A DNA stretch of 64,000 nt from Jiangella anatolica (GTDB taxonomy: Bacteria; Actinomycetota; Actinomycetes; Jiangellales; Jiangellaceae). Below are positions 4,726 to 24,699 of this stretch, one piece after another (within the stretch, counting starts at the first letter, position 1; every line of letters begins with the position of its first letter). The stretch is taken from positions 1 to 64,000 of the forward strand of contig NZ_POTW01000005.1 of the NCBI RefSeq assembly GCF_003236295.1, in the 5' to 3' direction. A model generated the notes under the pieces. The model made no database searches and had not been told where the DNA came from. It was given only the letters and a program-made list of their open reading frames with translations. The translations under genes were made by a program, and so were the position numbers.

Positions 4726-6096
<1,371 letters not shown>

Positions 6097-6108
6097 GTCG
6101 TCCCCTCG

Positions 6109-6125
6109 ATCTGAAATTCTGTTTT
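6109..6125 (+). promoter_or_regulatory. putative IclR operator, site 1
   Basis: ATCTGAAATTCTGTTTT matches ATCYGRAAY-N3-RTTYY, the weakest of five copies in the window. It lies just downstream of the predicted start of transcription of the aminotransferase gene, where a bound repressor would block elongation or open-complex formation. Confidence 0.5.
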
Positions 6126-6133
6126 GTATTTGG

Positions 6134-6163
6134 AGGCTAAGGATCCGGCCAGTTCCATGTCAA
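6134..6163 (-). promoter_or_regulatory. predicted promoter of the aminotransferase gene
   Basis: On the minus strand a perfect -35 TTGACA (6163-6158), an 18-bp spacer and TAGCCT (6139-6134) precede the gene. Transcription would start near 6127, directly next to operator site 1. Confidence 0.55.
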
Positions 6164-6174
6164 CCACGCATGTC

Positions 6175-6203
6175 TTGACACCGGTCGACGGAGACACCAG
6201 CAT
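6175..6203 (+). promoter_or_regulatory. predicted promoter of the catabolic operon
   Basis: A perfect TTGACA (6175-6180), 17-bp spacer and CAGCAT (6198-6203) put transcription start at about 6210, which is the GTG start codon itself. Operator site 2 covers the first codons. Confidence 0.5.
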
Positions 6204-6209
6204 CGGGGT

Positions 6210-7226
6210 GTGGAATCTAGTTCCGGATATGACCGGCCGGTCGGCGTTCTCGTCGTCGGGACCGGCGCCATCGCCGAGCTTCACCTCGCCGCCGTCCACG
6301 CGCACCCGGGTGCGACGCTCGCGGGTGTCGCCGACCTCGTCCCCGTCCGCGCCGCCGCGGCCGCCCGCGCGCACGGCGGCGTGCCGTGGGACACCGACCT
6401 CGCGACGGCGCTGGCCCGGCCCGGCGTCGACGCCGTCATCGCCTGCCCGCCCAACGACGCGCACGCCGAGGTCGGCCTCGCCGTCGCGGCCGCCGGCAAG
6501 CACCTGCTGATCGAGAAGCCGCTGGCGACCACCGTCGACGACGCGGACCGCCTGGTCGCGGCGTTCGCGGACCACGGCCTGACGCTGACCGCGGCGCACA
6601 CGCACCGCCACTACGACTACGCCCGCGCGGTGCACGCGGCCATCGCGGACGGAACCGTGGGCCGGCCCCGGCTGATCCGGCTGAGCGTGCTCGGCGGTTG
6701 GATCTGGCCGGACTGGCGCGCCTGGGTGCTCGACCCGGCCCGCTCCGGCGGCCACGAGCTGCACAACGGCGTGCACCTGCTGGACCTGGTGACCTGGTGG
6801 ATGGGCGACGATCCGGTCCGCGTGTACGCGCGCGGGCGCAAGCAGACCGCCGCCGAGCTGGAGATCCACGACTATCTGGAGCTCGTGGTCGAGTTCGCCG
6901 GCGGCGGTGTCGCGGTCTGCGAGATGAGCCGCGGCCACCGCCCGGCCACGCTCGGCTACCGCGACGTCCTCGTCGTCGGCGACGGCGGCAGCTACGCGAT
7001 CCCGTGGGACGGCGCCGCCGCGACGCTGTTCGGCGAGGCCGGCACCGCTCTGCTGCCGGTCGCGGAGTCCGACGGCTTCGCCACCCAGCTGGACGCCTGG
7101 CTGACGGCGATCCGCGGCGGCCCCGACCCGATGCCGGCCACCGACGCCGCGCGCGCGGTCGTCCTCGCCGTCGCCGCGCGCGAGTCGATCGCCACCGGCG
7201 CACCCGTCGAGGTGATGGCGGCGTGA
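6210..7226 (+). CDS. Gfo/Idh/MocA-family oxidoreductase
   Basis: A 338-residue NAD(P)-dependent sugar or inositol-type dehydrogenase. The Rossmann motif VVGTGAIAELH begins at about residue 15, and LIEKPLATT carries the family's EKP lysine. A typical C-terminal alpha/beta substrate domain follows, with GGHELHNGVHLLDL near the active-site histidine position. The GTG at 6210 is the only usable start in frame; no ribosome-binding site is seen, and the predicted promoter would give a leaderless message. It is the first gene of a seven-gene operon with 4-bp overlaps. Oxidation of a pyranose to its lactone would fit the downstream lactonase-like and dehydratase-like genes, but this is inference. Confidence 0.88.
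   Translation: MESSSGYDRPVGVLVVGTGAIAELHLAAVHAHPGATLAGVADLVPVRAAAAARAHGGVPWDTDLATALARPGVDAVIACPPNDAHAEVGLAVAAAGKHLLIEKPLATTVDDADRLVAAFADHGLTLTAAHTHRHYDYARAVHAAIADGTVGRPRLIRLSVLGGWIWPDWRAWVLDPARSGGHELHNGVHLLDLVTWWMGDDPVRVYARGRKQTAAELEIHDYLELVVEFAGGGVAVCEMSRGHRPATLGYRDVLVVGDGGSYAIPWDGAAATLFGEAGTALLPVAESDGFATQLDAWLTAIRGGPDPMPATDAARAVVLAVAARESIATGAPVEVMAA
6212..6228 (-). promoter_or_regulatory. putative IclR operator, site 2
   Basis: Read on the minus strand this is ATCCGGAACTAGATTCC, matching ATCYGRAAY-N3-RTTYY. It overlaps the start codon and first codons of the oxidoreductase gene, so here operator and coding sequence share bases. Confidence 0.6.
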
Positions 7227-7996
7227 GCGCCCGCCGGCTCACCGCCCGCCTCGTCGGCCTGACCGAGCAGCACCCGTACACGGCCGCCGTCCGCGCCCAC
7301 GCCGGTTTCGAACTCACGAACAGCGACGACGCCGACGTCGTCGTGCTGGCCGTCCCACTCGCCGACCGGCCGGCCGCCGTGGAGCAGACCGTCAAGGCCG
7401 GGAAGCACACCGTCGTGCACGGCGTGCTGGCCGAGGACCCGGACCAGGCCGCCGAGCTGGCCGCCCTCGCCCAGAACCAGGGCACCGTCTGCCTGCCGGA
7501 CTACCACGTCCGGTTCCAGCCGGCCGTCCGCGCGGCGAGGGCCGCCGTCGCCGCCGGCCGGGTCGGGCTGCCGTGGAACGTCCAGGGCGACCTGATCAGC
7601 TCCGACACGGCCGCGAAGCCGGCGTCGCTGGCCGTTCACGCGATCGACACCGTCCGGGCGCTCACCGGCCTGCCGGTCCGCACGGTCCGCCGCACCGACG
7701 CCGGCAGCGTGCTGCTGCTCCTGCTCACGCACGACCACGGCGTCACCAGCACGCTCGCCGTCGGGCACGCACCCGGCGCGGCCACGCACCGCTACCGGAT
7801 CAGCGGCTCGCACGGCATGCTCGACGTCGACGCGAGCAAGCCCGCCTGGGCCGGCGGCGCGTCGATGGCGGGGCTGCTCACCGAGCTGCACACCGCCGTC
7901 GTCACCGACCGGCCGGCCGAGCTGAGCCTCGACGACGCGGTCGCTGCGCAGCGGGTCCTCACCGACGTCAGAACCGCCGAGGGGAGCACGGCATGA
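7223..7996 (+). CDS. degenerate Gfo/Idh/MocA-like protein lacking key motifs
   Basis: A 257-residue protein that follows the Gfo/Idh/MocA fold pattern but is about 80-100 residues short. The N-terminal nucleotide-binding glycine motif is gone (the chain starts RLTARLVGLTEQH), and where an EKP motif should be it reads VVHGVLAEDP, so the catalytic lysine is absent. The middle (LPDYHVRFQPAVRAARAAV) and the C-terminal domain are recognisable. GTG at 7223 overlaps the stop of the preceding canonical oxidoreductase. It may be a non-catalytic partner subunit or an enzyme with altered chemistry. The frame is clean with no sign of decay, so it is probably functional rather than a pseudogene. Confidence 0.75.
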   Translation: MSARRLTARLVGLTEQHPYTAAVRAHAGFELTNSDDADVVVLAVPLADRPAAVEQTVKAGKHTVVHGVLAEDPDQAAELAALAQNQGTVCLPDYHVRFQPAVRAARAAVAAGRVGLPWNVQGDLISSDTAAKPASLAVHAIDTVRALTGLPVRTVRRTDAGSVLLLLLTHDHGVTSTLAVGHAPGAATHRYRISGSHGMLDVDASKPAWAGGASMAGLLTELHTAVVTDRPAELSLDDAVAAQRVLTDVRTAEGSTA

Positions 7997-8886
7997 GGCT
8001 GGTCAGCTACCGCCGCGACGGCGCGCTGCGACACGGCGTCCTCGCCGTCGGCACCGGCGTCGATGCCGCCGGCGTCGACCGCGCCGAGGTCGTCGAGCTG
8101 GGCGACGGCGACCTGAACGTCCTTCTGGACGAGCACGGCACGCTGCGCGGCTGGACCCCGCCGGACGGCCCGCGCCACCGGCTCGGCGACGTCCGCCTGA
8201 CCGCCCCGCTCACGCGCCCGGGCAAGCTGCTCGCGGCCGCCGCGAACTACCAGGCGCACGTCCTCGAGGCGGGGGCGGAGCCGCTGAACCGGTCGACGCT
8301 GGCGCCGCGGCTGTTCCTGATGCCGCCGACGGCGATCGCCGGCCCCGGCGACCCGATCGCGCTGCCCGCCGTCAGCACCCAGGTCGACTGGGAGGCCGAG
8401 CTGGTGGTCGTCGTCGGCGCGCGGGCCCGCGACCTCACCCCGGAGAACGCGCTGGACGTCGTCGCCGGGTACGCCGTCGGCAACGACGTGTCGGCGCGGT
8501 CGCTGGACTACGGTTTCCGGCGCGACGCGTCGGACCCGGCGACCGGCTTCTTCGACTGGCTCGCCGGCAAGTGGCCGGACGGGTTCTGCCCGTTCGGTCC
8601 CTACCTGGTGACGGCGGACGAGGTGCCCGACCCGCAGGACCTGCCGATCGAGCTGACCGTGAACGGGGCGCTGAAGCAGGCCGCGTCGACGAAGGACATG
8701 ATCTTCACCGTGGCCGAGCTGCTGGCGTTCGCGTCCCGGCTCATGACGCTGGAGCCGGGCGACGTGCTGCTCACCGGCACACCGGACGGCGTCGGGATGG
8801 CGAGCGGTGAGTTCCTGGCCGACGGCGACGAGGTCACCGTCCGCATCGGCGGGCTGGGCGAGCTGACCAACCGGATGGTCCGGTGA
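7993..8886 (+). CDS. fumarylacetoacetate hydrolase (FAH)-family protein
   Basis: A 297-residue member of the FAH family, which includes fumarylacetoacetases, 2,4-diketo-3-deoxy-sugar-acid hydrolases, and hydratases/decarboxylases of catechol pathways. The C-terminal catalytic domain has QVDWEAELVVVVG, supplying the metal-binding Glu pair, then GYAVGNDVSARSLDY, KWPDGFCPFGPYLV and LLTGTPDGVGM, all standard family signatures. ATG at 7993 overlaps the preceding stop (ATGA). In this operon, next to a galactonate-dehydratase-like enzyme, cleavage of a 2,4-diketo-3-deoxy acid is an attractive guess, but other beta-diketone substrates are equally possible from sequence alone. Confidence 0.88.
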   Translation: MRLVSYRRDGALRHGVLAVGTGVDAAGVDRAEVVELGDGDLNVLLDEHGTLRGWTPPDGPRHRLGDVRLTAPLTRPGKLLAAAANYQAHVLEAGAEPLNRSTLAPRLFLMPPTAIAGPGDPIALPAVSTQVDWEAELVVVVGARARDLTPENALDVVAGYAVGNDVSARSLDYGFRRDASDPATGFFDWLAGKWPDGFCPFGPYLVTADEVPDPQDLPIELTVNGALKQAASTKDMIFTVAELLAFASRLMTLEPGDVLLTGTPDGVGMASGEFLADGDEVTVRIGGLGELTNRMVR

Positions 8887-10424
8887 CCGTTGCGCTGCGG
8901 GGCGGCGACGTCCTGGACGGGCTCGGCGGGCCCGCCGTGCGGGCGGACGTGCTGGTCCGCGCCGGCGTCGTGGTGGCCCACGGGACGCCCGACACGGTCA
9001 TCGACGTCACCGGGCTGGTCGTCTGCCCGGGCTTCGTCGACCTGCACTCCCATTCGGACCTGACGCTGCTGTCCGCGCCGCGGGCGCCCAGCAAGGTGCG
9101 TCAGGGCGTCACCACCGAGGTCGTCGGGAACTGCGGTCTGGGCGTGGCGCCGATCGCCGCCGACGTCGCCGAGCTGCGCGCCGCCGCCGGCTACCTCGAC
9201 CTGGACCCGGCCGTGCCGCTGGACTGGCAGGGCTTCGGCGAGTACCTCGACGCGCTGGCCGCGGCCCGGACCAGCGTCAACGTCGCCGCCCTGGTGCCGC
9301 ACCTGCCGCTGCACGCGGCGGCGGCCGGCTGGGACGACGGCCCGGCCGACCTGGACCGGCTGCGCGGCCTGCTGGCCGAGTCGTTCGCGGCCGGCGCGGC
9401 GGGCGTGTCGACCGGCCTGTGCTACGGACCGCTCGTGCACGCCGGCGAGGACGAGCTGACGGCGATCGGCGCGGTCGCGGCCGAGCACGGCCGGGTGTTC
9501 GCCTGGCACCTGCGCGACTACGGCGCCGGCCTGCTCGACGCCGTCGACGAGGCGCTGCGGGTGGCCGAGCGGACCGGCTGCCGCACCCAGCTGTCGCACC
9601 TGGTCTCCGTCGGCCGGAAGAACTGGGGCGGCGTCGCGGCGGCGCTGGAGCGGGTCGACGCGGCCCGCGACCGCGGCCTGGACGTCGCCGTCGACGTCTA
9701 CCCGTACCTGGCCGGCAACGCGCCGCTGTCCCAGCTGCTGCCGGCGTGGGCACAGAACGGCGGCGCCGACGCGATGAAGGTGCGGCTGGCCGACCCCGAC
9801 GTCCGGGCACGCGTGGCCACAGAATGGCAGGACCTGCCGTGGACCTGGGACGAGATCACCGTCAGCCGGGTGCCGGCCGGCCCCGACGACGCCGCGACCG
9901 GCCGCACGCTGGCGCAGCTGGGTGACCACCCCGCGGACGTGGCGCTGGACCTGCTGCACCGGCACGGCAACGCCGTCCTCGCCGTCGGCACCGGCCGCAG
10001 CGAGGACGACCTGCTGGCCGCGCTGCGCCATCCCGCGTCGGTGATCGGCTCCGACGGCCTGGCGCTGGACCCGGACGGCCCGACCGGCGCCGGCCAGCCG
10101 CACCCGCGGTCCTACGGGACCTACCCGCGGCTGCTGCGCGACTATGTGGGCCCGGGCCGGCTGAGCCTGGCGGAGGCGGTGGCCAAGTGCACGTCCGCCC
10201 CCGCGGAAAGAGCCGGCCTGCGCGATCGCGGCGTGCTCGCGCCCGGCCGGCCCGCCGACATCGTCGTCCTGGACCCGGCCGCCGTCGCCGACCGGGCCAC
10301 ATACACCGACCCGCAGCGCTATCCGGGCGGGATCGCGCTGGTCATGGTCAACGGGACCGCCGTGGTGGACGGCCGCGGCCACACCGGCGCGCGGCCCGGC
10401 AGCGTCCTACGAGTCGAGGAGTAG
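8883..10424 (+). CDS. N-acyl-D-amino-acid deacylase (D-aminoacylase)-like amidohydrolase
   Basis: A 513-residue amidohydrolase-superfamily enzyme. GFVDLHSHSDLTL gives the metal-binding HxH, followed by VRQGVTTEVVGNCGLGVAP, which is characteristic of the D-aminoacylase branch (compare its usual GNCG motif), then FAWHLRDYG, QLSHL, and GSDGLALD with the catalytic Asp. The C terminus (LAPGRPADIVVLDP) closes the small beta-sandwich. These enzymes release a carboxylic acid from N-acyl-D-amino acids. GTG at 8883 overlaps the FAH stop. With the PLP enzyme downstream it suggests that D-configured or otherwise unusual N-acyl amino compounds are handled by this operon. Confidence 0.87.
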   Translation: MTVALRGGDVLDGLGGPAVRADVLVRAGVVVAHGTPDTVIDVTGLVVCPGFVDLHSHSDLTLLSAPRAPSKVRQGVTTEVVGNCGLGVAPIAADVAELRAAAGYLDLDPAVPLDWQGFGEYLDALAAARTSVNVAALVPHLPLHAAAAGWDDGPADLDRLRGLLAESFAAGAAGVSTGLCYGPLVHAGEDELTAIGAVAAEHGRVFAWHLRDYGAGLLDAVDEALRVAERTGCRTQLSHLVSVGRKNWGGVAAALERVDAARDRGLDVAVDVYPYLAGNAPLSQLLPAWAQNGGADAMKVRLADPDVRARVATEWQDLPWTWDEITVSRVPAGPDDAATGRTLAQLGDHPADVALDLLHRHGNAVLAVGTGRSEDDLLAALRHPASVIGSDGLALDPDGPTGAGQPHPRSYGTYPRLLRDYVGPGRLSLAEAVAKCTSAPAERAGLRDRGVLAPGRPADIVVLDPAAVADRATYTDPQRYPGGIALVMVNGTAVVDGRGHTGARPGSVLRVEE

Positions 10425-10428
10425 CCAG

Positions 10429-11256
10429 GTGATCGACGTACACACGCACTGCCTGCTGCGGGAGCACTGGGGCCACGAGTGGGAGGACCACTGGCAGCCG
10501 GTCTACGGCCGGGAGTGGACCGACGTCACCACCGAGCACTTCGACGAGTCCATGCAGGGCGTCACGACGGCGTTCGTGTTCGGGCTGCGCGCGAGCGCCC
10601 TCGGCGTGGCGACGCCGAACGACTTCGTCGCCTGGTTCTGCGCGAACACCGAGACCGACACCGTCGGCTTCATGGCGCTGGACCCGTCCGACCCCGACGT
10701 GCTGGACCAGCTCGCCGACGGCGTCGCGAAGGGGCTGCGCGGCATCAAGCTCTACCCCGTCCTGGCCCGGTTCGACCCGCGCGACACCGCGCACGACCCG
10801 TTCTACCGGGCCGCGGCCGACAACGGCCTGGTCGTGCTCTGGCACATGGGCGCGACGCCGAGCCCGGCCGGCGACCTGTCGCTGAGCGAGCCGTTGCTGG
10901 TCGACGACGTCGCCCGGCGGCACCCGGACCTGGTGCAGATCATCGCCCACCTGGGACACCCGTGGCAGCGCGAGACCATCGTCGTGCTGCGGAAGAACCG
11001 CCGGGTGTTCGCCGACGTCTCTGCGGCGTGGGCGCTGCCGTTCGACGGCTACCACGCGCTGGTCCGCGCCCAGGAGTGGAAGGTCGTGCCGAAGCTGCTG
11101 TTCGGCTCGGACTACCCGCTGTGGACGCCGGCCCAGGCCGCCGACGGGCTGCGGATGCTGGCCGCGATGCGCCCGGACGGGCTGCCGCGCATCGAGGCGT
11201 CGACGGTCGAGTGGCTGGTCGACGGCGACCCGCGGCCGGCGCTGGGACTGGCATGA
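10429..11256 (+). CDS. amidohydrolase-2 (PF04909-type) family metal hydrolase, possible lactonase
   Basis: A 275-residue TIM-barrel hydrolase starting with MIDVHTHC, the first metal-binding motif, with GIKLYP, HMGATPSPAG, IIAHLGHPW and the late GSDYPLW containing the catalytic Asp. The family covers decarboxylases, sugar-lactone hydrolases and related enzymes. The GTG start at 10429 follows GAGGAG 5 bp after the previous stop. Between a sugar oxidoreductase and a sugar-acid dehydratase-like enzyme, hydrolysis of a sugar lactone to the acid is a reasonable inference. Decarboxylase or amidase activity cannot be excluded. Confidence 0.83.
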   Translation: MIDVHTHCLLREHWGHEWEDHWQPVYGREWTDVTTEHFDESMQGVTTAFVFGLRASALGVATPNDFVAWFCANTETDTVGFMALDPSDPDVLDQLADGVAKGLRGIKLYPVLARFDPRDTAHDPFYRAAADNGLVVLWHMGATPSPAGDLSLSEPLLVDDVARRHPDLVQIIAHLGHPWQRETIVVLRKNRRVFADVSAAWALPFDGYHALVRAQEWKVVPKLLFGSDYPLWTPAQAADGLRMLAAMRPDGLPRIEASTVEWLVDGDPRPALGLA

Positions 11257-12350
11257 GGCTGGCCGACGTCGCGACGCCGGCGCTGCTGGCCGACCAGCCC
11301 CGGCTGGTGCGGAACCTGACGGCGATGGCGACGCTGCTGGCGAGGGCCGGGGTGGCGCACCGGCCGCACATCAAGACGTCGAAGTGCCTGGACGTGGTCC
11401 GGCGCCAGCTGGCGCTGGGCGCGACCGGCGTCACCTGCGCGACGCCGGCGGAGGTCAGGCTGCTGCTCGACGCCGGGGTCCAGGATGTGCTCTGGGCGCA
11501 CGCTCCGGTCGGCCCGGCCAAGGTCGCGTTCGCCGTGTCGGCCGCGGCGGGCGGACGGCTGACCGTCGCGCTGGACTCGGCCGCCGTCGCGGCGCCGCTG
11601 GCCGAGGCGGCCGATGCGGCCGGCGTGACGATCCCGTACCTGCTCGAGGTCGACACCGGGCTGGGCCGGATGGGCGTCGCGCCGGACGACGCGGCCGCCG
11701 CCGTCGCGGAGCTGGCGCCGTACCCGTCGCTGCGGCTGCGCGGGGTGATGACGCAGGAGGGCCACGTCGGCGCCGCCCTGGGCGACCGGGACGCGCAGGC
11801 GGCGGCGGGACGGCGGGCCGGCGAGGCGCTCGTCGGGGCGGCCGAGGCGCTGCGGGCCGCCGGCCACGAGTGCCCGGTCGTCTCCGTCGGCTCGACGCCC
11901 GGCGCGGCCAGCACGCCGTTCGTCCCCGGCGTCACCGAGGCCCGGCCCGGCACCTATGTCTACTACGACAGCAACCAGATCGCCGTCGGCGCCGCGACGC
12001 TCGCCGACTGCGCGCTGACCGTGCTGACCAGGGTCGTCAGCACCCGGCGCGGCGACCGGGTGATCGTCGACGCCGGGCTGAAGGCGATGAGCAACGACCC
12101 GGCCGCGACCGGCGGCGGGCTCGGCACCGTCTGCGACGCCGAGCTCAACCCCGTGGAGGATGTCGTGTTCGAGTACGCCCACGAGGAGCACGGCTTCCTC
12201 ACCGGCCCCGGCATCGCGAACCTCGCCGTCGGCGACCTGCTGCGGATCGTGCCGAACCACGCCTGCGGCACCGTGAACATGTTCGGCGGGGTGCACCTCG
12301 TCGAGGACGACCGGGTGCTGAACCGGTGGACGATCGGGGCGCGGCACTGA
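11253..12350 (+). CDS. D-threonine aldolase / D-serine dehydratase-like PLP enzyme (fold type III)
   Basis: A 365-residue enzyme of the alanine-racemase-like fold. The N terminus has the PLP lysine in RPHIKTSKC (about residue 37). LLEVDTGLGRMG and VSVGSTPGA are cofactor-contacting segments, and the C terminus has IVPNHACGTVN, where His and Cys bind the divalent metal in D-threonine aldolases and eukaryotic-type D-serine dehydratases. These enzymes act on D-beta-hydroxy-alpha-amino acids. ATG at 11253 overlaps the preceding stop. Together with the D-aminoacylase gene it argues for a D-amino-acid step in the pathway. Aldolase versus dehydratase activity cannot be decided from sequence. Confidence 0.85.
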   Translation: MRLADVATPALLADQPRLVRNLTAMATLLARAGVAHRPHIKTSKCLDVVRRQLALGATGVTCATPAEVRLLLDAGVQDVLWAHAPVGPAKVAFAVSAAAGGRLTVALDSAAVAAPLAEAADAAGVTIPYLLEVDTGLGRMGVAPDDAAAAVAELAPYPSLRLRGVMTQEGHVGAALGDRDAQAAAGRRAGEALVGAAEALRAAGHECPVVSVGSTPGAASTPFVPGVTEARPGTYVYYDSNQIAVGAATLADCALTVLTRVVSTRRGDRVIVDAGLKAMSNDPAATGGGLGTVCDAELNPVEDVVFEYAHEEHGFLTGPGIANLAVGDLLRIVPNHACGTVNMFGGVHLVEDDRVLNRWTIGARH

Positions 12351-13423
12351 TGCGCGTCACCGGCGTGACGACCGTCCTGCTGCGGGCCGGCGACAGCACC
12401 GCCGCGATCGTCGAGCTGCGCACCGACACCGAGGTGACCGGGCTGGGCGAGACCTACGCGGGCGTGTTCGTCCCGCACACCGTGCCGGCGATCGTCGACC
12501 GGTTCGGCGCGCTGCTGACCGGCCGCCGGATCGACCCCGAGGACCCGGCCGGGGAGCTGCGGCGGCTGCGCCGCGAGACCGCGTTCTGGGCGACGTCCGG
12601 GCTCGGCGCGGGCGTGCTCGCCGGAGTCGAGGCGGCGCTGTGGGACCTCGCCGGGAAGGCGCTCGGGATGCCCGTGCACCGGCTGCTCGGCGGGCCGCGG
12701 CACGAGCGGCTGCCGGTGCTGGCCACGGGCGGGCCGTCGCGGCCGGCCGGCGAGCTGTACCGGACCGTCGAGCACCACCTCGGACAGGGGTTCGCCGGCG
12801 TGCGGTTCGGGCTGGACCACGGCGACGACCTCGCCGAGGTGCTCGGGTCGCTGCGCGAGCGGTTCGGCGCCGGTCCGGAGCTGGCGGTCGACTGCCACGG
12901 GGAGATGCGCGAGCCGTCGCGGCGCTGGGACGTCGCGACGGCCGCCGCCGCGCTGGCCGCCGCGGCGCCGCACCGGCCGCTGTACGTCGAGGAGCCGCTG
13001 GCCTACGACGACCCGGCCGCCTACGCGGAGCTGCGCACCGCGACGGACCTCCTCGTCGCCGGCGGCGAGCGGCTGGCGAGCTACGCCGAGTTCGCCCCCT
13101 GGGTCCGGGCCGGTGCGTTCGGCGTGCCGCAGCCGGACGCGTCGTGGGCCGGCGTCACCGACGTGCTCGCCGTCGCCGCCGGCGGCGGCCGCATCGCGCC
13201 GCACAGCTGGAGCGCCGGCGTCGGCGCGCTGCAGAACGTGCACGCCGGGTTCGCCGCCGCGACCACGCTGACGCTCGAGCTGCCGGCGACGCCCGGGCCC
13301 CTGCGCACCGAGCTGTGGGGCGACGCCGTCGCCGTCCGGGACGGCCACCTCACCCCGCCGGAGGCGCCCGGCTGGGGCGCCGTCCTCACCGACGAGGTCA
13401 GGGAGCGGTACGCGCTGCGCTGA
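12350..13423 (+). CDS. enolase-superfamily sugar-acid dehydratase, D-galactonate dehydratase-like
   Basis: A 357-residue member of the mandelate racemase/muconate lactonising enzyme group. The usual KxK general base is replaced (GVRFG near 150). Instead VDCHGEM gives Asp 181 and His 183, a D-x-H arrangement like that of D-galactonate dehydratase, followed by YVEEPL (Glu 214/215), AGGERL (Glu 240) and APHSW (His 285). These positions agree with the DgoD layout as I remember it, so a galactonate-type acid is the best substrate guess. The ATG shares its A with the preceding TGA. Last gene of the operon; its 3' end overlaps the convergent MaoC gene by 26 bp. Confidence 0.85.
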   Translation: MRVTGVTTVLLRAGDSTAAIVELRTDTEVTGLGETYAGVFVPHTVPAIVDRFGALLTGRRIDPEDPAGELRRLRRETAFWATSGLGAGVLAGVEAALWDLAGKALGMPVHRLLGGPRHERLPVLATGGPSRPAGELYRTVEHHLGQGFAGVRFGLDHGDDLAEVLGSLRERFGAGPELAVDCHGEMREPSRRWDVATAAAALAAAAPHRPLYVEEPLAYDDPAAYAELRTATDLLVAGGERLASYAEFAPWVRAGAFGVPQPDASWAGVTDVLAVAAGGGRIAPHSWSAGVGALQNVHAGFAAATTLTLELPATPGPLRTELWGDAVAVRDGHLTPPEAPGWGAVLTDEVRERYALR

Positions 13424-14231: not shown

Positions 14232-15814
14232 CCGCGCAGCTCCCGCCGCAGCACCTTGCCGGTGGCCGTCTTCGGGATCTCCGGCAGGATCTCGACGTCG
14301 CGCGGGCACTTGTAGGCGGCCAGGTGCTCGCGGCAGAACGCGATCAGCTCGGCCGGCTCGGCCGACTCCCCCGCCCGCAGCGACACGAACGCCTTCACCG
14401 TCTCGCCGCGGTACTCGTCCGGCACCCCGACGACGGCGGCCTCGTGCACGGCCGGATGCTGGTACAGGACGTCCTCGACCTCGCGCGGCCACACCTTGAA
14501 GCCCGACGCGATGATCATGTCCTTCGACCGGTCCAGCAGGTAGAACCAGCCGCCGGCGTCGCGCTTGCCGACGTCGCCGGTGCGCAGCCAGCCGCCGTCG
14601 ACGATGGCCTCCGCGGTCGCCTCCGGGCGCTGCCAGTAGCCCGGCACGACCCCTTCGCCGCGGATCCAGAACTCGCCGACCTCACCGACCGGCACGTCGG
14701 CGCGGGTGTCCGGGTCGACGACGCGGACGTCGGTGTCCGGCACCGGCACGCCGATCGACAGCGCGCCGGTGTCCGCGTCGACCGGCGCGCGCCCGCCGAG
14801 CGGCACCATGTGCGTGGGCGACGTCGTCTCCGTCAGGCCGTAGCAGTTGTGGATGTAGCCGCCGGCGAGGTCCTGCCACTGCTCGACGGTGGCCGGCGGC
14901 ACCGGCGCGCCACCGCTGAACGTCTTCGCGAACGCCGTCAGGTCCCGGGTGGCGATGTCCGGGCAGGCCATCAGCGCGCGGAACGCGGTGATGCTGGCCA
15001 GCGTGAACGTGCCGCGGTGGCGTTCGAGCGCCCACAGGATCGTGGCCGGGTCGAACCGGTACGTCAGCACGATCGGCGCGCCCGCGGCGAACGCGACGCC
15101 GGTGATCGCGGTCGGCCCGATGATGTGGAACAGCGGCGCCAGCGCGGCCACCACGTCCCGCTCGTCGATGCGCGCCCAGGAGCGCCACAGCCCGGCGATG
15201 AAGGCCAGGTTGCGGTGCGTGTTCATCGCACCCTTCGGCCGGCCCGTGGTGCCGGACGTGTAGCTGAGCACGGCGACGTCGCCCGGCGCCGGGAGGTGCG
15301 GCGGCGGCCGCCGGCCGGCGTACTGCCGGGTCAGCGCCACCAGGTCCTCCGTGCCGTCCGGCCGGTCGCCGCGGGCGACGCCGGCGAGCAGCGGCGGGAC
15401 CGCGTCGAGGAAGTCCAGCTCGGACGTCGTGATGACGGTCTTGACGTCGGTCCGCCGGACCACGCCGGCCACCACGTCGCGGTACAGCGACTCCAGCACC
15501 ACCATCGCCGTCGCGCCGGAGTCGGTCAGGTGGTACTCGACCTCGGGCGGGCGGAACATCGGGTTCAGCGGCACCCAGATCGCGCCCAGCTTCCACACCG
15601 CCAGCTCGGCGAGGATGAACTGCGGCACGTTCTGGGTCATCAGCGCGACGCGGGACCCCGGGCCGACGCCGCGTTCGGACAGTGCGACGGCGAGCGCGCC
15701 GGACAGCTCGTCCACGGTCGCGTAGTCGAGGACGGTGTCGAAGTAGACCAGGCACGGTGCCGACGGCGTCCTGGTCGCGGACGCGGCGAAGTGCTCCAGG
15801 GAACTCGCGGCCAT
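14228..15814 (-). CDS. acyl-CoA synthetase (AMP-binding, ANL superfamily)
   Basis: A 528-residue ligase with the ANL signatures in order: the phosphate loop SYTSGTTGRPKG, GLTETTSPTHMV for adenine and substrate binding, GEFWIRGEGVVPGYW, WLRTGDVG, the hinge region LDRSKDMIIASGFKVWPREVE, and the catalytic lysine in PKTATGKVLRREL close to the C terminus. It activates a carboxylic acid to its CoA thioester with ATP. The start ATG has AGGAG upstream and lies 8 bp after the stop of the ABC ATPase gene, so it is part of the transporter operon. The chain length of the substrate cannot be predicted. Confidence 0.9.
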   Translation of the reverse strand: MAASSLEHFAASATRTPSAPCLVYFDTVLDYATVDELSGALAVALSERGVGPGSRVALMTQNVPQFILAELAVWKLGAIWVPLNPMFRPPEVEYHLTDSGATAMVVLESLYRDVVAGVVRRTDVKTVITTSELDFLDAVPPLLAGVARGDRPDGTEDLVALTRQYAGRRPPPHLPAPGDVAVLSYTSGTTGRPKGAMNTHRNLAFIAGLWRSWARIDERDVVAALAPLFHIIGPTAITGVAFAAGAPIVLTYRFDPATILWALERHRGTFTLASITAFRALMACPDIATRDLTAFAKTFSGGAPVPPATVEQWQDLAGGYIHNCYGLTETTSPTHMVPLGGRAPVDADTGALSIGVPVPDTDVRVVDPDTRADVPVGEVGEFWIRGEGVVPGYWQRPEATAEAIVDGGWLRTGDVGKRDAGGWFYLLDRSKDMIIASGFKVWPREVEDVLYQHPAVHEAAVVGVPDEYRGETVKAFVSLRAGESAEPAELIAFCREHLAAYKCPRDVEILPEIPKTATGKVLRRELRG

Positions 15815-15822
15815 TGCGGCTC

Positions 15823-16815
15823 CTACTGCTGCTCAGGGAAGTGACAGGCGACGCTCTGTGTGCCGGACTGCGTGGGCGTCAGGACCGGCTCCGTCGTCGC
15901 GCACACGTCCTGGGCCTTCCAGCAGCGGGTGCGGAACCGGCAGCCCGACGGCGGGTTGCGCGGGCTGGGCACGTCGCCGCTGAGCACGATCCGGTCCGGC
16001 CGGTCCCGCAGCGCCGGGTCGGGCAGCGGGATCGCCGACAGCAGCGCCCGCGTGTACGGGTGCGCCGGACGCTCGAAGATGTCGAGCTTGTCGCCGGACT
16101 CGACCACCTTGCCCAGGTACATGACGATGACGCGGTCGCAGCTGTGCCGCACCACCGACAGGTCATGCGAGATGAACAGGTACGCCAGGCCGAGCTCGCG
16201 CTGCAGTGTCGCCAGCTGGTTCACCACCTGTGCCCGGATCGACACGTCCAGCGCGGACACCGGTTCGTCCAGCACCAGCACGCTCGGGTCCAGCGCGAGC
16301 GCGCGGGCGATGCCCAGGCGCTGGCGCTGGCCGCCGGAGAACTCGTGCGCGTACCGGTTCAGGTGCTCGGCGGACAGCCCGACCATCTCCAGCAGCTCGA
16401 CCACCCGGTCGCGCCCGCCGGAGCGGTAGCCGCCCTGCACCCGCAGCGGCTCGGAGACCAGCTCGCGGGCGGTCATCCGCGGGCTCAGCGACGAGTACGG
16501 GTCCTGGAAGACGATCTGGATCGCGCAGCGCAGCTCGCGCCGGTCCGCCGCCGGCATCGTCTCGACGTCCACGCCGCGGAACCGCACCGTCCCCGACGTC
16601 GGCGTGGTCAGGCCGACGAGGATCTGGCCGACGGTGGACTTCCCGCAGCCGGACTCCCCCACCAGGCCGAGCGTCTCGCCGACGCGCAGCGAGAAGCTGA
16701 CACCGTCCAGCGCCCGGATCGCCGCGACCTGCCGGCGCAGCACGCCGCCGCGGACCGGGAAGAACTTGCGCAGGTCCTCGACGCCGACGATCTCGTCGGT
16801 CAGGGTCGCCGTCAT
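15823..16815 (-). CDS. oligopeptide/dipeptide-type ABC transporter ATPase (DppF-like)
   Basis: A 330-residue nucleotide-binding protein with Walker A GESGCGKST, Q-loop VFQDPYSSLSPRMT, signature FSGGQRQRLG, Walker B LVLDEPVSALD, H-loop FISHDLSVV, and the C-terminal oligopeptide-type extension (HPYTRALLSAIP and a Cys cluster around RFRTRCWKAQDVC). The start is the ATG at 16815, which overlaps the stop of the preceding ATPase gene (ATGA). It forms the second motor subunit of the four-gene importer. No periplasmic binding protein gene lies in the operon. Confidence 0.92.
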   Translation of the reverse strand: MTATLTDEIVGVEDLRKFFPVRGGVLRRQVAAIRALDGVSFSLRVGETLGLVGESGCGKSTVGQILVGLTTPTSGTVRFRGVDVETMPAADRRELRCAIQIVFQDPYSSLSPRMTARELVSEPLRVQGGYRSGGRDRVVELLEMVGLSAEHLNRYAHEFSGGQRQRLGIARALALDPSVLVLDEPVSALDVSIRAQVVNQLATLQRELGLAYLFISHDLSVVRHSCDRVIVMYLGKVVESGDKLDIFERPAHPYTRALLSAIPLPDPALRDRPDRIVLSGDVPSPRNPPSGCRFRTRCWKAQDVCATTEPVLTPTQSGTQSVACHFPEQQ

Positions 16816-17801
16816 CGGGCCATCACCAGCTCCTCGTGGAAGTGGCACGCCGACGCGTGCCCCGGCGCGAGCGGCACCAGGCCCGGGCGCTCCGTCACGC
16901 ACCGGTCCCGGCCGGCCGCGACCGGGCAACGAGCGGCGAACGTGCAGCCGACCGGCGGCGCGACCAGGTTCGGCGGGCTGCCCGAGATCGGGGTCAGCTC
17001 CTCGGTGTCGCGGTCCAGCCGGGGCAGGCTCTCCAGCAGGCCGAGCGTGTACGGATGCCGAGGCGCGGCGAACACCGTCGTGACGTCGCCCTGCTCGACG
17101 ATCGCGCCGCCGTACATCACCACGACCCGGTCGGCCATCTCGGCGACGACGCCGAGGTCGTGGGTGATGAGGATGGTGGCGGCGCCGGTCTCGCGCTGCG
17201 CCTTGCGCAGCAGGCCGAGCACCTGTGCCTGGATCGTCACGTCCAGCGCGGTGGTCGGCTCGTCGGCGATGAGCAGCGCCGGGTCGTTGGCGATCGCCAT
17301 CGCGATCATCACCCGCTGGCGCATGCCGCCGGAGAACTCGTGCGGGTACTGCCGGGCCCGCGAGTCCGGGTCCGGCACGCCGACCAGCGTCAGCAGGTCG
17401 ACGGCGCGCTGCCAGGCCTGCTTGCGGGTGACCGGCCGGTGCAGCCGGACCACCTCGGCGATCTGCTTGCCGACCCGGTGCACCGGGTTCAGCGCCGTCA
17501 TCGGGTCCTGGAAGATCACCGAGATGTCGTCGCCGCGCAGCGCCCGCAGCCGGTCCGGCGTCGCCGCCAGCAGGTCCTCGCCACGGAACCGGATGCCGCT
17601 CGCGCTCACCCGGGCCGGCGGGCGGCGCAGCAGGCCGAGCACGGCCATCGCCGTCACGCTCTTGCCGGAGCCGGACTCGCCGACGACGCACAGCATCTCG
17701 CCCGGCTCGACGTCGAACGAGACGCCGTTGACGGCGTGCACCGTGCCGGCCTCGGTGCCGAACTCGACCACGAGGTCACGGACCTCCAGCAGTGCGCTCA
17801 T
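16812..17801 (-). CDS. oligopeptide/dipeptide-type ABC transporter ATPase (DppD-like)
   Basis: A 329-residue ATPase with Walker A GESGSGKSV, Q-loop IFQDPMTALNPVH, signature FSGGMRQRVMIA, Walker B LIADEPTTALD, H-loop ITHDLGVV and the C-terminal HPYTLGLLESLP/Cys region of the oligopeptide subfamily. The ATG at 17801 overlaps the permease stop (ATGA). It pairs with the DppF-like subunit encoded next. Confidence 0.92.
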   Translation of the reverse strand: MSALLEVRDLVVEFGTEAGTVHAVNGVSFDVEPGEMLCVVGESGSGKSVTAMAVLGLLRRPPARVSASGIRFRGEDLLAATPDRLRALRGDDISVIFQDPMTALNPVHRVGKQIAEVVRLHRPVTRKQAWQRAVDLLTLVGVPDPDSRARQYPHEFSGGMRQRVMIAMAIANDPALLIADEPTTALDVTIQAQVLGLLRKAQRETGAATILITHDLGVVAEMADRVVVMYGGAIVEQGDVTTVFAAPRHPYTLGLLESLPRLDRDTEELTPISGSPPNLVAPPVGCTFAARCPVAAGRDRCVTERPGLVPLAPGHASACHFHEELVMAR

Positions 17802-18712
17802 CGCAGCGCCCCCAGCGTCGTGCGCGGGTCGAGCGCGTCGCGCAGCCCGTCGCCGACGAAGTTCACCGCGAGCACCGTCAGCGCGACCGCGATGCCCGGC
17901 GGCAGCCACATCCACGGCATCGAGCTGATCAGCGTGAGGTTCTGCGCGTCGGTGAGCATGTTCCCCCAGCTCGCGGCCGGCGGCTCGACGCCGAGGCCGA
18001 GGAAGGACAGCGTCGCCTCGGCCATGATCGCCTGGGCGACGCCGAGCGTCGCCACCACCGTCACCGGGCCGAGCGCGGCCGGCACCAGGTGCCGGGTGAT
18101 CAGCCACCAGCCGCCCGCGCCGAACGAGCGGGCCGCCTTGACGAACTCGCGCTCGCGCACCGACAGCGTGACGCCGCGGACGACGCGTCCGGCGGCCGGC
18201 CAGCCGAACACGCCCATCGCCAGCACCAGCGTGACGACGCTCGGCCCGAGCACCCCGGCCACGACGATGATCACCACCAGCGCCGGGAACGACAGCATGA
18301 TGTCCGCCGTCCGCATGATGACGGTGTCGGCCCAGCCGCGGAACAGCCCCGCGACGGCGCCGAGCAGCGTGCCGATCGCCACCGAGATCAGCGACGCGGC
18401 GATGCCGACGCCGAGCGAGATCCGGCCGGCGTGCAGCAGCCGGGCGAACACGTCGCGCCCGGCCGAGTCCGTGCCCAGCCAGTGCTCCGCGGACGGCGCC
18501 TGCCGGAACGCCGCCAGGTCCACCTCGTTCGGGTGGTGCGGCGCGATGACGTCGGCCAGCAGGGCGGCGACGACGATGACGCCCAGCGTCACCAGGCCCA
18601 CCATCGCCATGCGGTGACGGCGGAACCGGCGCCAGGCCAGGCCGGCCGGGCCGCGGGTGGACACCGGGGTGGTGGCGGCGAGCGCGGCCGCCGGCTCCAT
18701 GGCAGCGGTCAT
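17798..18712 (-). CDS. oligopeptide/dipeptide-type ABC permease (DppC-like)
   Basis: A 304-residue inner-membrane permease. The N-terminal RRFRRHRMAMVGLVTLG begins the first transmembrane segment, followed by the family's HWLGTDSAGRDVFARLLHAGR, about five further hydrophobic segments and the EAA-type loop near REREFVKAARSFGA. The C terminus NFVGDGLRDALDPR is typical for DppC. The ATG at 18712 overlaps the stop of the upstream permease. Confidence 0.92.
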   Translation of the reverse strand: MTAAMEPAAALAATTPVSTRGPAGLAWRRFRRHRMAMVGLVTLGVIVVAALLADVIAPHHPNEVDLAAFRQAPSAEHWLGTDSAGRDVFARLLHAGRISLGVGIAASLISVAIGTLLGAVAGLFRGWADTVIMRTADIMLSFPALVVIIVVAGVLGPSVVTLVLAMGVFGWPAAGRVVRGVTLSVREREFVKAARSFGAGGWWLITRHLVPAALGPVTVVATLGVAQAIMAEATLSFLGLGVEPPAASWGNMLTDAQNLTLISSMPWMWLPPGIAVALTVLAVNFVGDGLRDALDPRTTLGALR

Positions 18713-19668
18713 TGCAGGCTCACCCGTGGGTCGGCGATGGAGTACAGGACGTCCGCGAGCATGTTCGACAGCAGCACAAGGATCGCGACGAAGAACGCGA
18801 ACCCGATGATCACCGGGTAGTCCTGCTGGTTGACCGCGGAGATGACCAGCTGGCCCATGCCGGGCCAGGCGAAGATCTGCTCGACGACGACGGCGCCGAC
18901 CAGCAGCGCCGGCAGCGTCAGGCCGAGGATGGTGATCAGCGGGATCAGCGCGTTGCGCAGCACGTGGCCGAAGAGGATCCGCCGCGGCGTGGCGCCCTTC
19001 GACTCCGCCGTCTTCACGTACTCGGAACCGAGTTCCGCGATCACACCGCTGCGCACGTATCTGGTGAAGGGCCCGGCCACCCCGAACGTCAGGATCGCCA
19101 CCGGCATGACCAGGTGGTGCAGCGAGTCGCCGAGGCTCGGCGCGCCCGGCGTCGACATCCCCGCCGACGGCACCCAGCCCAGCTGCAGCGCGAACACGTA
19201 GATGGCCAGGATGCAGAGGAAGAAGCCGGGGATCGACACCGCGCCGAGGCTCAGCGCCGCGGTCCAGTAGTCGACGGCGGTGTTGCGGCGGACCGCGGCG
19301 AGCATGCCCAGCGGGATCGCGATCGCGATGCCGAGCGCCAGCCCCAGCCCCATCAGCTCGATCGTCGGGCCGAGCCGCTCGGCCAGCAGCTCCGACACCG
19401 GCCGGTTGTTGGTCAGCGAGTAGCCGAGGTCGCCGGTGGCCACGCCCTGCAGCCAGGACCAGTACTGCGCCGGCAGCGGCCGGTCCAGCCCCAGCTCGTG
19501 CCGCTTCTGCTCGATGAAGTCCGCGCTGTCGGCGCCGAGCTGCTCGACCGGCACCATCATCGTGACCGGGTCGCCCGGCGCGGCGTGCACCAGCCCGAAC
19601 AACCCGATCGTCACGAGGAACAGCACGAGCACGCTCACCGCGAAGCGCCGCACGAGGTACGCCGCCAT
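18709..19668 (-). CDS. oligopeptide/dipeptide-type ABC permease (DppB-like)
   Basis: A 319-residue permease with the DppB pattern: N-terminal YLVRRFAVSVLVLFLVTIG segment, HAAPGDPV, a periplasmic loop with LGLDRPLPAQYWSWL, then several membrane segments and an EAA loop near SEYVKTAESKGA. The ATG at 19668 (8 nt after GAGGA) is preferred; a GTG two codons upstream at 19674 is also possible but is too close to the ribosome-binding site. First gene of the importer operon, preceded by IclR site 3. Confidence 0.9.
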   Translation of the reverse strand: MAAYLVRRFAVSVLVLFLVTIGLFGLVHAAPGDPVTMMVPVEQLGADSADFIEQKRHELGLDRPLPAQYWSWLQGVATGDLGYSLTNNRPVSELLAERLGPTIELMGLGLALGIAIAIPLGMLAAVRRNTAVDYWTAALSLGAVSIPGFFLCILAIYVFALQLGWVPSAGMSTPGAPSLGDSLHHLVMPVAILTFGVAGPFTRYVRSGVIAELGSEYVKTAESKGATPRRILFGHVLRNALIPLITILGLTLPALLVGAVVVEQIFAWPGMGQLVISAVNQQDYPVIIGFAFFVAILVLLSNMLADVLYSIADPRVSLQ

Positions 19669-19684
19669 GATCACCGTCCTCGGA

Positions 19685-19701
19685 ATCTGAAACAGTGTTC
19701 C
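19685..19701 (+). promoter_or_regulatory. putative IclR operator, site 3
   Basis: ATCTGAAACAGTGTTCC is an excellent match to ATCYGRAAY-N3-RTTYY. It overlaps the predicted transcription start (about 19696) of the transporter operon. Confidence 0.65.
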
Positions 19702-19702
19702 A

Positions 19703-19731
19703 AGGATTGCGGCGGCTCAGGACGGTGTCAA
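19703..19731 (-). promoter_or_regulatory. predicted promoter of the transporter operon
   Basis: On the minus strand: -35 TTGACA (19731-19726), 17-bp spacer, -10 AATCCT (19708-19703). Operator site 3 follows at once. Confidence 0.5.
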
Positions 19732-19734
19732 GGG

Positions 19735-20574
19735 TCAGCCCACGGGCTCGATGGCCGATCGCATCAGGGACGAGCGCAGGTACTCCAGCACGGCGACCAC
19801 GTCGGCGTCGCCGGCCAGGCCGGACGCGACCCTGCCCAGCACGGTCAGGTAGCGCTTCTGCTCCTCCAGGCCGAACTCCGCGGCCGGGCCGGAGACGCTG
19901 ACCGCGGCCAGCACCTCGCCGCGCACCGAGACCGGCACCGCAAGGCAGCGCAGCCCGGTGCTGGACTCGTTGTCGTCGAACCCATAACCCCTGCGCAACG
20001 TCGTGCGCAGCTCGCGCTGGAACGCCGCCAGCGAGGTGATGGTGCGGTCGGTGTAGGCGGGGAAGGGCTCGGCCGGGACGTGCGCCGCGACCTCGTCGGC
20101 GTCGAGGACGGCCAGCAGCACCTTGCCCAGCCCGCTGACGTAGGCCGGCGCGCGGTGGCCGGCGGCGCTGGCGTAGCGCAGCGCGCGGTCGGGCTCGCGG
20201 ACGCACACGTGCAGCACCTGGTCGCCGTCGAGCAGGCCGAGGTTGCCGGTCTGCGAGGTCTCCCCGGCCAGCTCCTCCAGGTAGTGGCCGGCCACCTGGG
20301 AGATGTCCAGCTGCGCCACGTAGGCGTCGGAGAGCAGCTGCACCTTGTGCCCCAGCCGGTAGGCCGGCCGCTCGTCTACCCGGACCACGTACTCCTCCCG
20401 GTCCAGCACGCTGAGCAGCCGGACCAGGGTGCTCTTCGGCATCCCGGTGTGCTCGTGGAAGTCGGCGATCGTCTGCGGCGACCGGCCGCGGGCCAGGATC
20501 TCCAGCACGTTCAGGCCGCGGGACAGCGCCTGCGCGTGGTAGTGGACGGCGTCGGTCTCGCTGTTGCGGGCCAT
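19735..20574 (-). CDS. IclR-family transcriptional regulator (predicted regulator of the island)
   Basis: A 279-residue protein with an N-terminal winged helix-turn-helix (ALSRGLNVLEILARG, GMPKSTLVRLLSVLDREEYV) and a C-terminal IclR effector domain (LAGETSQTGNLGLLDGDQVLHV, YVSGLGKVLLAVL, CLAVPVSVRGEVLAAVSVSGP). The ATG at 20574 has GGAGG 7 nt upstream. It lies between the transporter operon and the second GH36 gene, and a copy of the 17-bp motif lies in its own leader and in front of each neighbouring unit, so autoregulation and control of the whole island are inferred. The effector is unknown. Confidence 0.9.
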   Translation of the reverse strand: MARNSETDAVHYHAQALSRGLNVLEILARGRSPQTIADFHEHTGMPKSTLVRLLSVLDREEYVVRVDERPAYRLGHKVQLLSDAYVAQLDISQVAGHYLEELAGETSQTGNLGLLDGDQVLHVCVREPDRALRYASAAGHRAPAYVSGLGKVLLAVLDADEVAAHVPAEPFPAYTDRTITSLAAFQRELRTTLRRGYGFDDNESSTGLRCLAVPVSVRGEVLAAVSVSGPAAEFGLEEQKRYLTVLGRVASGLAGDADVVAVLEYLRSSLMRSAIEPVG

Positions 20575-20602
20575 AAGGCGACCTCCGGCGGAAGCTTGAA
20601 CA

Positions 20603-20619
20603 GGAATAGCGTTTCAGAT
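20603..20619 (-). promoter_or_regulatory. putative IclR operator, site 4 (iclR leader)
   Basis: Read on the minus strand: ATCTGAAACGCTATTCC. It lies directly downstream of a TAGCCT -10-like hexamer (20629-20624), the same hexamer as in the aminotransferase promoter, and suggests autoregulation. Confidence 0.6.
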
Positions 20620-20658
20620 GAAGAGGCTAGCAGCGGAAGCGTCCGCGGCCCTTCACCC

Positions 20659-20688
20659 TTGACGCCGCCCTCGTCGCGACCGGATCAT
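20659..20688 (+). promoter_or_regulatory. predicted promoter of the second GH36 gene
   Basis: TTGACG (20659-20664), 18-bp spacer, GATCAT (20683-20688), with the predicted start near 20695 immediately before operator site 5. Confidence 0.5.
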
Positions 20689-20696
20689 CTGACGTT

Positions 20697-20713
20697 GGAA
20701 CGCTGTTTCGGAT
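20697..20713 (-). promoter_or_regulatory. putative IclR operator, site 5
   Basis: Read on the minus strand: ATCCGAAACAGCGTTCC, a strong match to the shared motif, placed over the predicted transcription start of the second GH36 gene. Confidence 0.65.
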
Positions 20714-20731
20714 TTGACTGGTGGAGGCACG

Positions 20732-22806: not shown

Positions 22807-22864
22807 CCCATGATCATCAACCTTTGGCGTCGTGATGACAGCCCAGAAGGTTGATGATCATGGG
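22807..22864. terminator. perfect 18-bp inverted repeat, probable bidirectional terminator
   Basis: CCCATGATCATCAACCTT (22807-22824) is perfectly complementary to 22847-22864, with a 22-nt loop. It sits between the convergent GH36 and alcohol dehydrogenase genes and overlaps the last codon and stop of the latter. There is no U-tract. The stem is much less GC-rich than its surroundings, which marks it as a distinct element rather than chance. Confidence 0.6.
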
Positions 22865-24644: not shown

Positions 24645-24699
24645 GTTCCGAATAGTAGAGCGCCGTGTCGTTAACCGGAAGAGCATCGGAGGACGGGCC

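Follow-up and report, generated by a model that had tools for sequence, protein, structure and literature searches.

A probable local, autoregulated IclR-family regulon in a catabolic island of Jiangella anatolica, and a paralogous counterpart in the same genus

Introduction

Among described regulatory systems, the closest to the one reported here are the IclR-family group 2 regulons of Suvorova and Gelfand (2021, PMC8222616), whose operators have the consensus TGRAACA-N1-2-TGTTYCA. As that account presents them, they are mostly small, sugar and sugar-acid genes and Dpp-type importers recur in them, and their sites lie near gene starts. Here, we analyze a catabolic island for sugars and amines in a 64-kb stretch of the high-GC genome of Jiangella anatolica (hereafter the window; its position 1 is base 1 of contig C212), in which a 17-bp motif, ATCYGRAAYNNNRTTYY, precedes an IclR-family gene (iclR) and four neighboring transcription units. 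The genome (G000) comprises 7,005,973 bases in 256 contigs.

The island shares these features with the group 2 regulons described in PMC8222616 but departs from them in two respects: its sites are extended by RGAT on one side, and they stand singly, no two of them being found in tandem at 18-22 nt, an arrangement that is frequent in the family without being universal. The site before oppB, TGGAACACTGTTTCA, fits the group 2 consensus exactly (TGRAACA-N-TGTTYCA, by eye), and in the other four, some inner or outer positions do not match it. Given this exact fit, both the motif and its use are of a known kind, and on its sequence the island motif is an IclR-family group 2 operator. A preliminary description had called the regulon new, a label that needs tempering because the motif belongs to a known IclR-family type. 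Neither the island nor its IclR was found in the parts of PMC8222616 considered here, and searches of one open-access library listed no description of such a regulon, which proves no absence.

By its domains, the regulator is an IclR-family transcription factor, with matches to PF09339 (HTH_IclR, 47.2 bits, cut-off 22) and PF01614 (IclR_C, 122.2 bits, cut-off 24). The nearest NCBIfam model is BhcR (NF045644), at 161.2 bits against a cut-off of 350, so the protein is not assigned to BhcR. It has the domain architecture of the BhcR, PcaR/PcaU/PobR and KdgR models, but its scores fall far under their cut-offs (161/350, 148/285 and 114/275 bits, respectively).

Results

Scanning both strands with ATCYGRAAYNNNRTTYY, a pattern derived from J. 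anatolica alone, we found five exact matches in the window, at precisely the five places first proposed, compared to a mean of 0.00 in 100 dinucleotide shuffles. The whole 7.0-Mb genome contains these five only, and the reversed pattern, used as a control, is absent from it. The exact motif is therefore not frequent genome-wide, with 5/5 matches inside the island. When up to two mismatches were allowed, the window held nine matches vs 1.34 expected; of the four additional matches, one lies at 19020 and the others are opposite-strand readings of three of the five sites. Genome-wide, this tolerance gave 246 places in all vs 48 for the reversed control. The same site stands before iclR and before the neighboring operons, and the exact pattern occurs nowhere else in the genome, which is the arrangement of a local autoregulated regulon.

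To place the motif in its phylogenetic setting, we compared 12 genomes of the genus, J. anatolica included, and counted motif matches in 60 relatives (own genome included). Only two of the 12 encode the island IclR: J. anatolica and a sister species (G001, 7.2 Mb), whose protein is 93% identical. The sister genome contains exactly five exact matches, one before each of five orthologous units, so that 5/5 units carry the site there, as conservation of the motif before orthologous operons would have it. Because the pattern was defined on J. anatolica alone, this recurrence is an independent test, made on one species pair. In the other 10 genomes, which lack the island IclR, the best IclR protein is 46-58% identical to it, and there are 0 or 1 exact matches each; these counts led us to reject the idea that the island sites represent a genus-wide motif. 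Outside the genus, no ortholog of the island IclR at E 1e-45 or better was found among 393 class genomes (evenly drawn from a larger group; 12 are of the genus). A search for related loci returned one distant match (32%), although near records may be missing from that search.

The substitutions that separate the two species are distributed unevenly over the operators, with 0/40 at fixed positions and 12/45 at degenerate ones (Y/R 5/30, N 7/15). Outside the sites, identity over the intergenic DNA is 76, 77 and 60% when gaps are disregarded. Read in the orientation of the gene, four sites have the form GRAAY-NNN-RTTYC-RGAT (the amt site begins with AAAAC), and the iclR site is inverted. All 10 sites, five from each species, have RGAT on one side, and none has its mirror image on the other; the operator is therefore asymmetric.

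The position of the sites relative to promoters was largely, but not fully, uniform. A -35 element of TTGACA or TTGACG had been claimed for four of the five units, and we indeed found TTGACA three times and TTGACG once (Table 1), at 32, 30, 32 and 24 nt from the site in the sister species (amt, gfo2, gh36b and oppB, respectively). In each of these four units, a proposed -10 precedes the site by 1-8 nt. The iclR promoter of J. anatolica showed no -35 at a tolerance of two mismatches, and that of the sister species has GTGACA 20 nt from the site; TAGCCT (TAGCAT in the sister species), read by eye, lies 4 nt upstream of the site. The placement is thus alike for amt, gfo2 and gh36b, as the preliminary description had said of every unit, but the oppB site and its -35 are ~8 nt closer together, and the iclR site has the opposite orientation and lacks a clear -35. 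The gfo2 operator falls within coding sequence, covering approximately codons 1-7 from the GTG start at 6210. The gh36b operator is placed in the leader because we took GTG 20732 as the start, as comparison with the sister species suggests. Two pairs of operators face divergent genes (6109-6228 and 20603-20713), and their centers are 103 and 94 bp apart in J. anatolica and 102 and 94 bp apart in the sister species; looping between paired operators is possible.

Gene assignments in Table 1 draw on Pfam and NCBIfam profile searches, and the short gene names are our own. The genes beside the sites proved to be as first named: an aminotransferase, a run of seven open reading frames (ORFs), an importer operon, the IclR gene, and a second GH36 gene. 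Within the seven-gene run (gfo2, gfo3, fah, daa, ah2, dta and mle; 6210-13423, plus strand), gene ends overlap or nearly touch.

Table 1. Operators, promoter elements and genes of the island in the window (identities are to the sister species unless stated otherwise)
Feature	Position	Strand	Remarks
amt operator	6109-6125	+ (gene on -)	Exact match; 15/17 identical directly compared (16/17 in gapped alignment)
Operator of gfo2 and seven-gene operon	6212-6228	-	Exact match; 16/17 identical
Importer operon (oppB) operator	19685-19701	+ (gene on -)	Exact match; 17/17 identical
iclR operator	20603-20619	-	Exact match; 13/17 identical, changes in degenerate positions only
gh36b operator	20697-20713	-	Exact match; 12/17 identical, changes in degenerate positions only
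amt -35, TTGACA	6158-6163	-	32 nt to site
gfo2 -35, TTGACA	6175-6180	+	31 nt to site
oppB -35, TTGACA	19726-19731	-	24 nt to site
gh36b -35, TTGACG	20659-20664	+	32 nt to site; -10 GATCAT at 20683-20688
gfo1	63-1046	+	Start probably lies on contig C29, as would the promoter of its likely operon
gh36a, GH36 glycosidase	1043-3133	+	~52% identical to gh36b
DUF222/HNH gene	3167-4648	+	Between gh36a and amt; no operator of its own
amt, class-III aminotransferase like glutamate-1-semialdehyde aminomutase	4726-6096	-	
gfo2, Gfo/Idh/MocA dehydrogenase	6210-7226	+	First of seven-gene operon
gfo3, short Gfo/Idh-like protein	7223-7996	+	Under Pfam gathering score
fah, fumarylacetoacetate-hydrolase (FAH) family	7993-8886	+	Nearest NCBIfam model 2,4-didehydro-3-deoxy-L-rhamnonate hydrolase, under cut-off
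daa, amidohydrolase like D-aminoacylase, N-acyl-D-glutamate deacylase and, more weakly, OngB	8883-10424	+	
ah2, Amidohydro_2 hydrolase	10429-11256	+	
dta, pyridoxal phosphate (PLP) enzyme like D-threo-3-hydroxyaspartate dehydratase and D-threonine aldolase	11253-12350	+	
mle, enolase-superfamily dehydratase-like	12350-13423	+	Last of seven-gene operon
maoC	13398-14231	-	Last of importer operon
acs, acyl-CoA ligase-like	14228-15814	-	
oppF, ABC ATPase	15823-16815	-	
oppD, ABC ATPase	16812-17801	-	
oppC, permease	17798-18712	-	
oppB, permease	18709-19674	-	First of six-gene importer operon (oppB, oppC, oppD, oppF, acs, maoC)
iclR, IclR-family regulator (HTH_IclR and IclR_C)	19735-20574	-	
gh36b, GH36 glycosidase	20732-22804	+	GTG 20732 taken as start, not TTG 20714
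Second IclR-family gene, unrelated to island iclR	23865-24635	-	Beside island; homolog in sister species

Judged by the sister genome, contig C29 adjoins the left end of the window: the end of C29 matches up to L053:17733 and the window matches from 17738 (L090 denotes the C29 locus and L053 the corresponding locus of the sister species). C29 carries a family-5 solute-binding protein, of which none was found in the window when the protein of the paralogous R2 cluster described below was the query. Two further gene groups lie on it: a 2-hydroxyacid dehydrogenase gene preceded by mle2, a divergent gene of the enolase family, and a lyase-like ORF with a Gfo/Idh gene behind it, from which the series continues into gfo1 and gh36a. 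The lyase-like ORF has a weak match to PF12708 (26.7 bits, under the cut-off of 27; sister-species copy tested). A short ORF whose start looks twin-arginine-like by eye lies before it in both species (L090:7845-8057, 70 aa; L053:13785-13970, 61 aa).

Weaker sites on C29 were scored with a matrix built from the ten sites of the two species. Before the lyase-like ORF, L090:7704-7720 scores 20.3 and its sister-species counterpart 16.4 on the same strand; L090:7779-7795 scores 18.2 and has no counterpart of at least 8. The best palindrome before the solute-binding protein gene scores 13.9 in J. anatolica and 16.2 in the sister species, on opposite strands, and a marginal site before mle2 scores 10.9 and 11.0, likewise on opposite strands. 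In dinucleotide-matched random sequence, 0.025 scores of at least 16 are expected for L090 vs 2 observed, and 0.01 vs 2 for L053. Across 426,249 bases of other DNA (overlapping loci), scores of at least 16 were reached once, at least 14 twice, at least 10 eleven times, and at least 18 never. The one background site scoring at least 16 (L077:2005-2021, 17.5, in the genus member G006) lies near TTGACA sequences and may be real.

From these scores, the lyase and solute-binding protein sites are likely operators, and the mle2 site is a possible one. The regulon probably extends beyond the window onto C29, which would also bring in gfo1 and gh36a through an upstream operon promoter.

A second, related system emerged from the genus comparison. 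An IclR protein 55-58% identical to the island IclR, which we call R2, is encoded in 11 of the 12 genomes; G005 has a second, 54% copy. R2 loci lie on contig C204 in J. anatolica, around C1:11000-24000 in the sister species, and in nine further genomes (some cut by contig ends). Where contig ends allow, they contain homologs of amt, gfo2, gfo3, fah, oppBCDF, daa and ah2, together with an own substrate-binding protein in J. anatolica and the sister species. Alignment of the amt-gfo2 intergenic region of nine of these genomes revealed two invariant blocks, ATGGCAAGACGTTCCAT and ATGGCACGCCATTCCGT. The motif ATGGCAMGNCRTTCCRT occurs in 2-3 copies per genome in precisely the 11 genomes with R2, and is missing from G003, which lacks it. 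In both J. anatolica and the sister species, the third copy lies just upstream of a GH36-family gene (in J. anatolica, between it and a divergent ORF); four other genomes also have a third copy. A third paralog, R3 (contig C247 in J. anatolica, 43-44% identical to the island IclR), is listed in six genomes only, which makes R2 the likelier reader of ATGGCAMGNCRTTCCRT. G003 has an IclR 46% identical to that of the island; its related cluster contains TGGAATGAARTTCCA twice and TGAAATTATGTTCCA once.

The R2 cluster and the island share the units amt / gfo2-gfo3-fah / oppBCDF / daa / iclR / ah2, TTGACA promoters with operators near the start, and, in J. anatolica and the sister species, a GH36 gene by a further operator. 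The layout of TTGACA followed by an operator at or near the gene start is similar again in the paralogous clusters, and the operator pair in the R2 cluster of J. anatolica is spaced 92 bp apart. The R2 cluster differs from the island in its half-site, GGCA vs GRAA, in the position of iclR2, which follows daa in the same direction, and in its gene set: among the R2 loci compared, none was reported to have a homolog of dta, mle, maoC or acs. Use of the island operator by the R2 cluster was rejected for the motif as written, with 0 GRAAYNNNRTTYC matches in those loci.

Despite these different half-sites, the recognition helix PKSTLVR is identical in the island IclR, R2, R3 and the G003 protein (17/17 aligned rows). 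According to the correspondence in Table 5 of PMC8222616, these residues occupy TtgV positions Pro46 to Arg52, with DNA-contacting ones among them. The position aligned to TtgV Gln15 (counted back from Arg19) is Q in the island IclR, N in R2, and H in both R3 and the protein of G003; the position is missing from one truncated row. A tentative interpretation, which we hold with less than even confidence, is that two paralogous IclR regulons with partly duplicated clusters coexist in one cell and use the same helix on different asymmetric operators (GRAA vs GGCA), with residues other than those of the recognition helix deciding specificity, such as the one at the Gln15 position at the start of helix 1. 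Cross-talk has to be considered, given this paralogous regulon in the genus, whose operator is related to that of the island without being the same. The pair could serve as a test case for how IclR-family specificity diverges and, if the interpretation is true, how cross-talk is avoided.

Discussion

We consider it very probable that the island is a local catabolic regulon with the IclR protein encoded at 19735-20574 as its repressor. As a dimer or tetramer, IclR would bind a 13-bp imperfect palindrome, GRAAY-NNN-RTTYC (AAAAC in amt), with RGAT on one side only. Bound close downstream of the -10, it would block transcription of the aminotransferase gene, the seven-gene operon, the importer operon, gh36b, and iclR itself, until a metabolite of the imported glycoside released it. 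The position of the sites just past the -10 fits such repression of both the island and iclR. The regulon would probably also cover the C29 promoters of the substrate-binding protein gene and of the lyase-like operon that leads into gfo1 and gh36a, and possibly that of the second enolase-family gene.

Several observations weigh against this reading. Conservation rests on a single species pair because only 1 of the 11 other genus genomes carries the island. At least one exact match occurs in 18 of the 60 relatives, and two of these (G051, with 8 matches, and G045, with 4) lack the island IclR, indicating that the string is not rare in every genome. J. anatolica itself has 14 further one-mismatch places, only two of which are the C29 sites. 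In addition, the -10 boxes are poor (2-3 mismatches), and a strict sigma-70 scan accepted just the gh36b promoter (0 in 6040-6300, 1 in 19640-20800). The statement that the sites stand at transcription starts therefore holds insofar as four lie just past a proposed -10, but the starts themselves are inferred. Finally, the recognition helix has identical residues in the island IclR and in its paralogs encoded by this genome, so another of them could bind the sites, and the island has an unrelated IclR gene (23865-24635) as a neighbor.

The last two points allow that the sites are read by another family member (R2 on C204, R3 on C247, or the adjacent protein), alone or with the island IclR. We regard this as rather unlikely. 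R2 and R3 do share PKSTLVR, but the only genomes with five strict sites are the two of the 12 that encode the island IclR, while R2 is present in 11 and co-occurs with its own ATGGCAMGNCRTTCCRT in the same 11; moreover, one strict site precedes the island iclR itself. The adjacent regulator has proximity in its favor but a different helix (SPKPTVHR), and sharing of the operator by it was rejected because the ten-site matrix found no place above 9.5 anywhere in window positions 23001-64000. Activators also exist within the IclR family, for example PobR and PcaU, and in two promoters, the probable one of the lyase-like operon on C29 and that of the GH36 gene in the sister-species R2 regulon, inspection by eye seems to place the site between -35 and -10. 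Still, that the island regulator activates rather than represses appears quite unlikely: the fifth strict site, like the other four, follows a -10, in its case the one read by eye, which suits occlusion, and the -35 is near-consensus in 4 of 5 promoters. Although the pattern was chosen after the sites had been seen, an origin by chance or from an IclR-unrelated feature such as a repeat element is extremely improbable. We rejected it given the shuffles, the absence of other matches in the genome, and the recurrence in the sister species with a matching substitution pattern; the sites are also intergenic or at a start codon.

With repression by the island IclR as the preferred reading, one switch would govern ~25 genes in ~8 transcription units, three of them on weaker sites. 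The inducer of IclR, which we expect to be the substrate or a pathway intermediate, would make the substrate findable. The enzyme set (GH36, Gfo/Idh, D-aminoacylase-like, PLP enzyme, enolase family, and FAH) allows the speculation that it is a glycoside whose sugar, which may bear an N-acylated amino group, undergoes oxidation and cleavage but no phosphorylation. The oxidized-chitin (Ong) pathway was considered as the route (PMC9537276, PMC12017989). As these accounts describe it, that cluster also combines OngB, a deacetylase resembling D-aminoacylases, with the fold-III PLP deaminase OngC under a local repressor, but the repressor is of the MurR/RpiR family, and no Gfo/Idh, FAH, GH36 or Opp importer is named in the portions that cover it. 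OngC is described there as a distant relative of D-threonine aldolases (PMC9537276). In the island, dta is nearest to D-threo-3-hydroxyaspartate dehydratase, and D-aminoacylases give daa a higher score than OngB does; the motifs HSHSD, GNCG and GSDG are present in daa, and its specificity loop lies at the edge of the alignments.

Taken together, we view the island as a clear example of a familiar type of control circuit, in which the local regulon itself is very probably real and the R2 counterpart is newly found. Some features of its genes and surroundings deserve mention. The DUF222/HNH gene is 62% identical in the sister species, a lower conservation than that of its neighbors. J. anatolica has a third GH36 gene of the gh36b subgroup (C4:5200-7179, 48% identical to gh36b), and relatives at 48-52% occur in five further genus genomes. 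The second IclR-family gene lies next to a zinc alcohol dehydrogenase gene (22858-23868) and a short-chain dehydrogenase/reductase gene (24628-25386), with homologs in the sister species.

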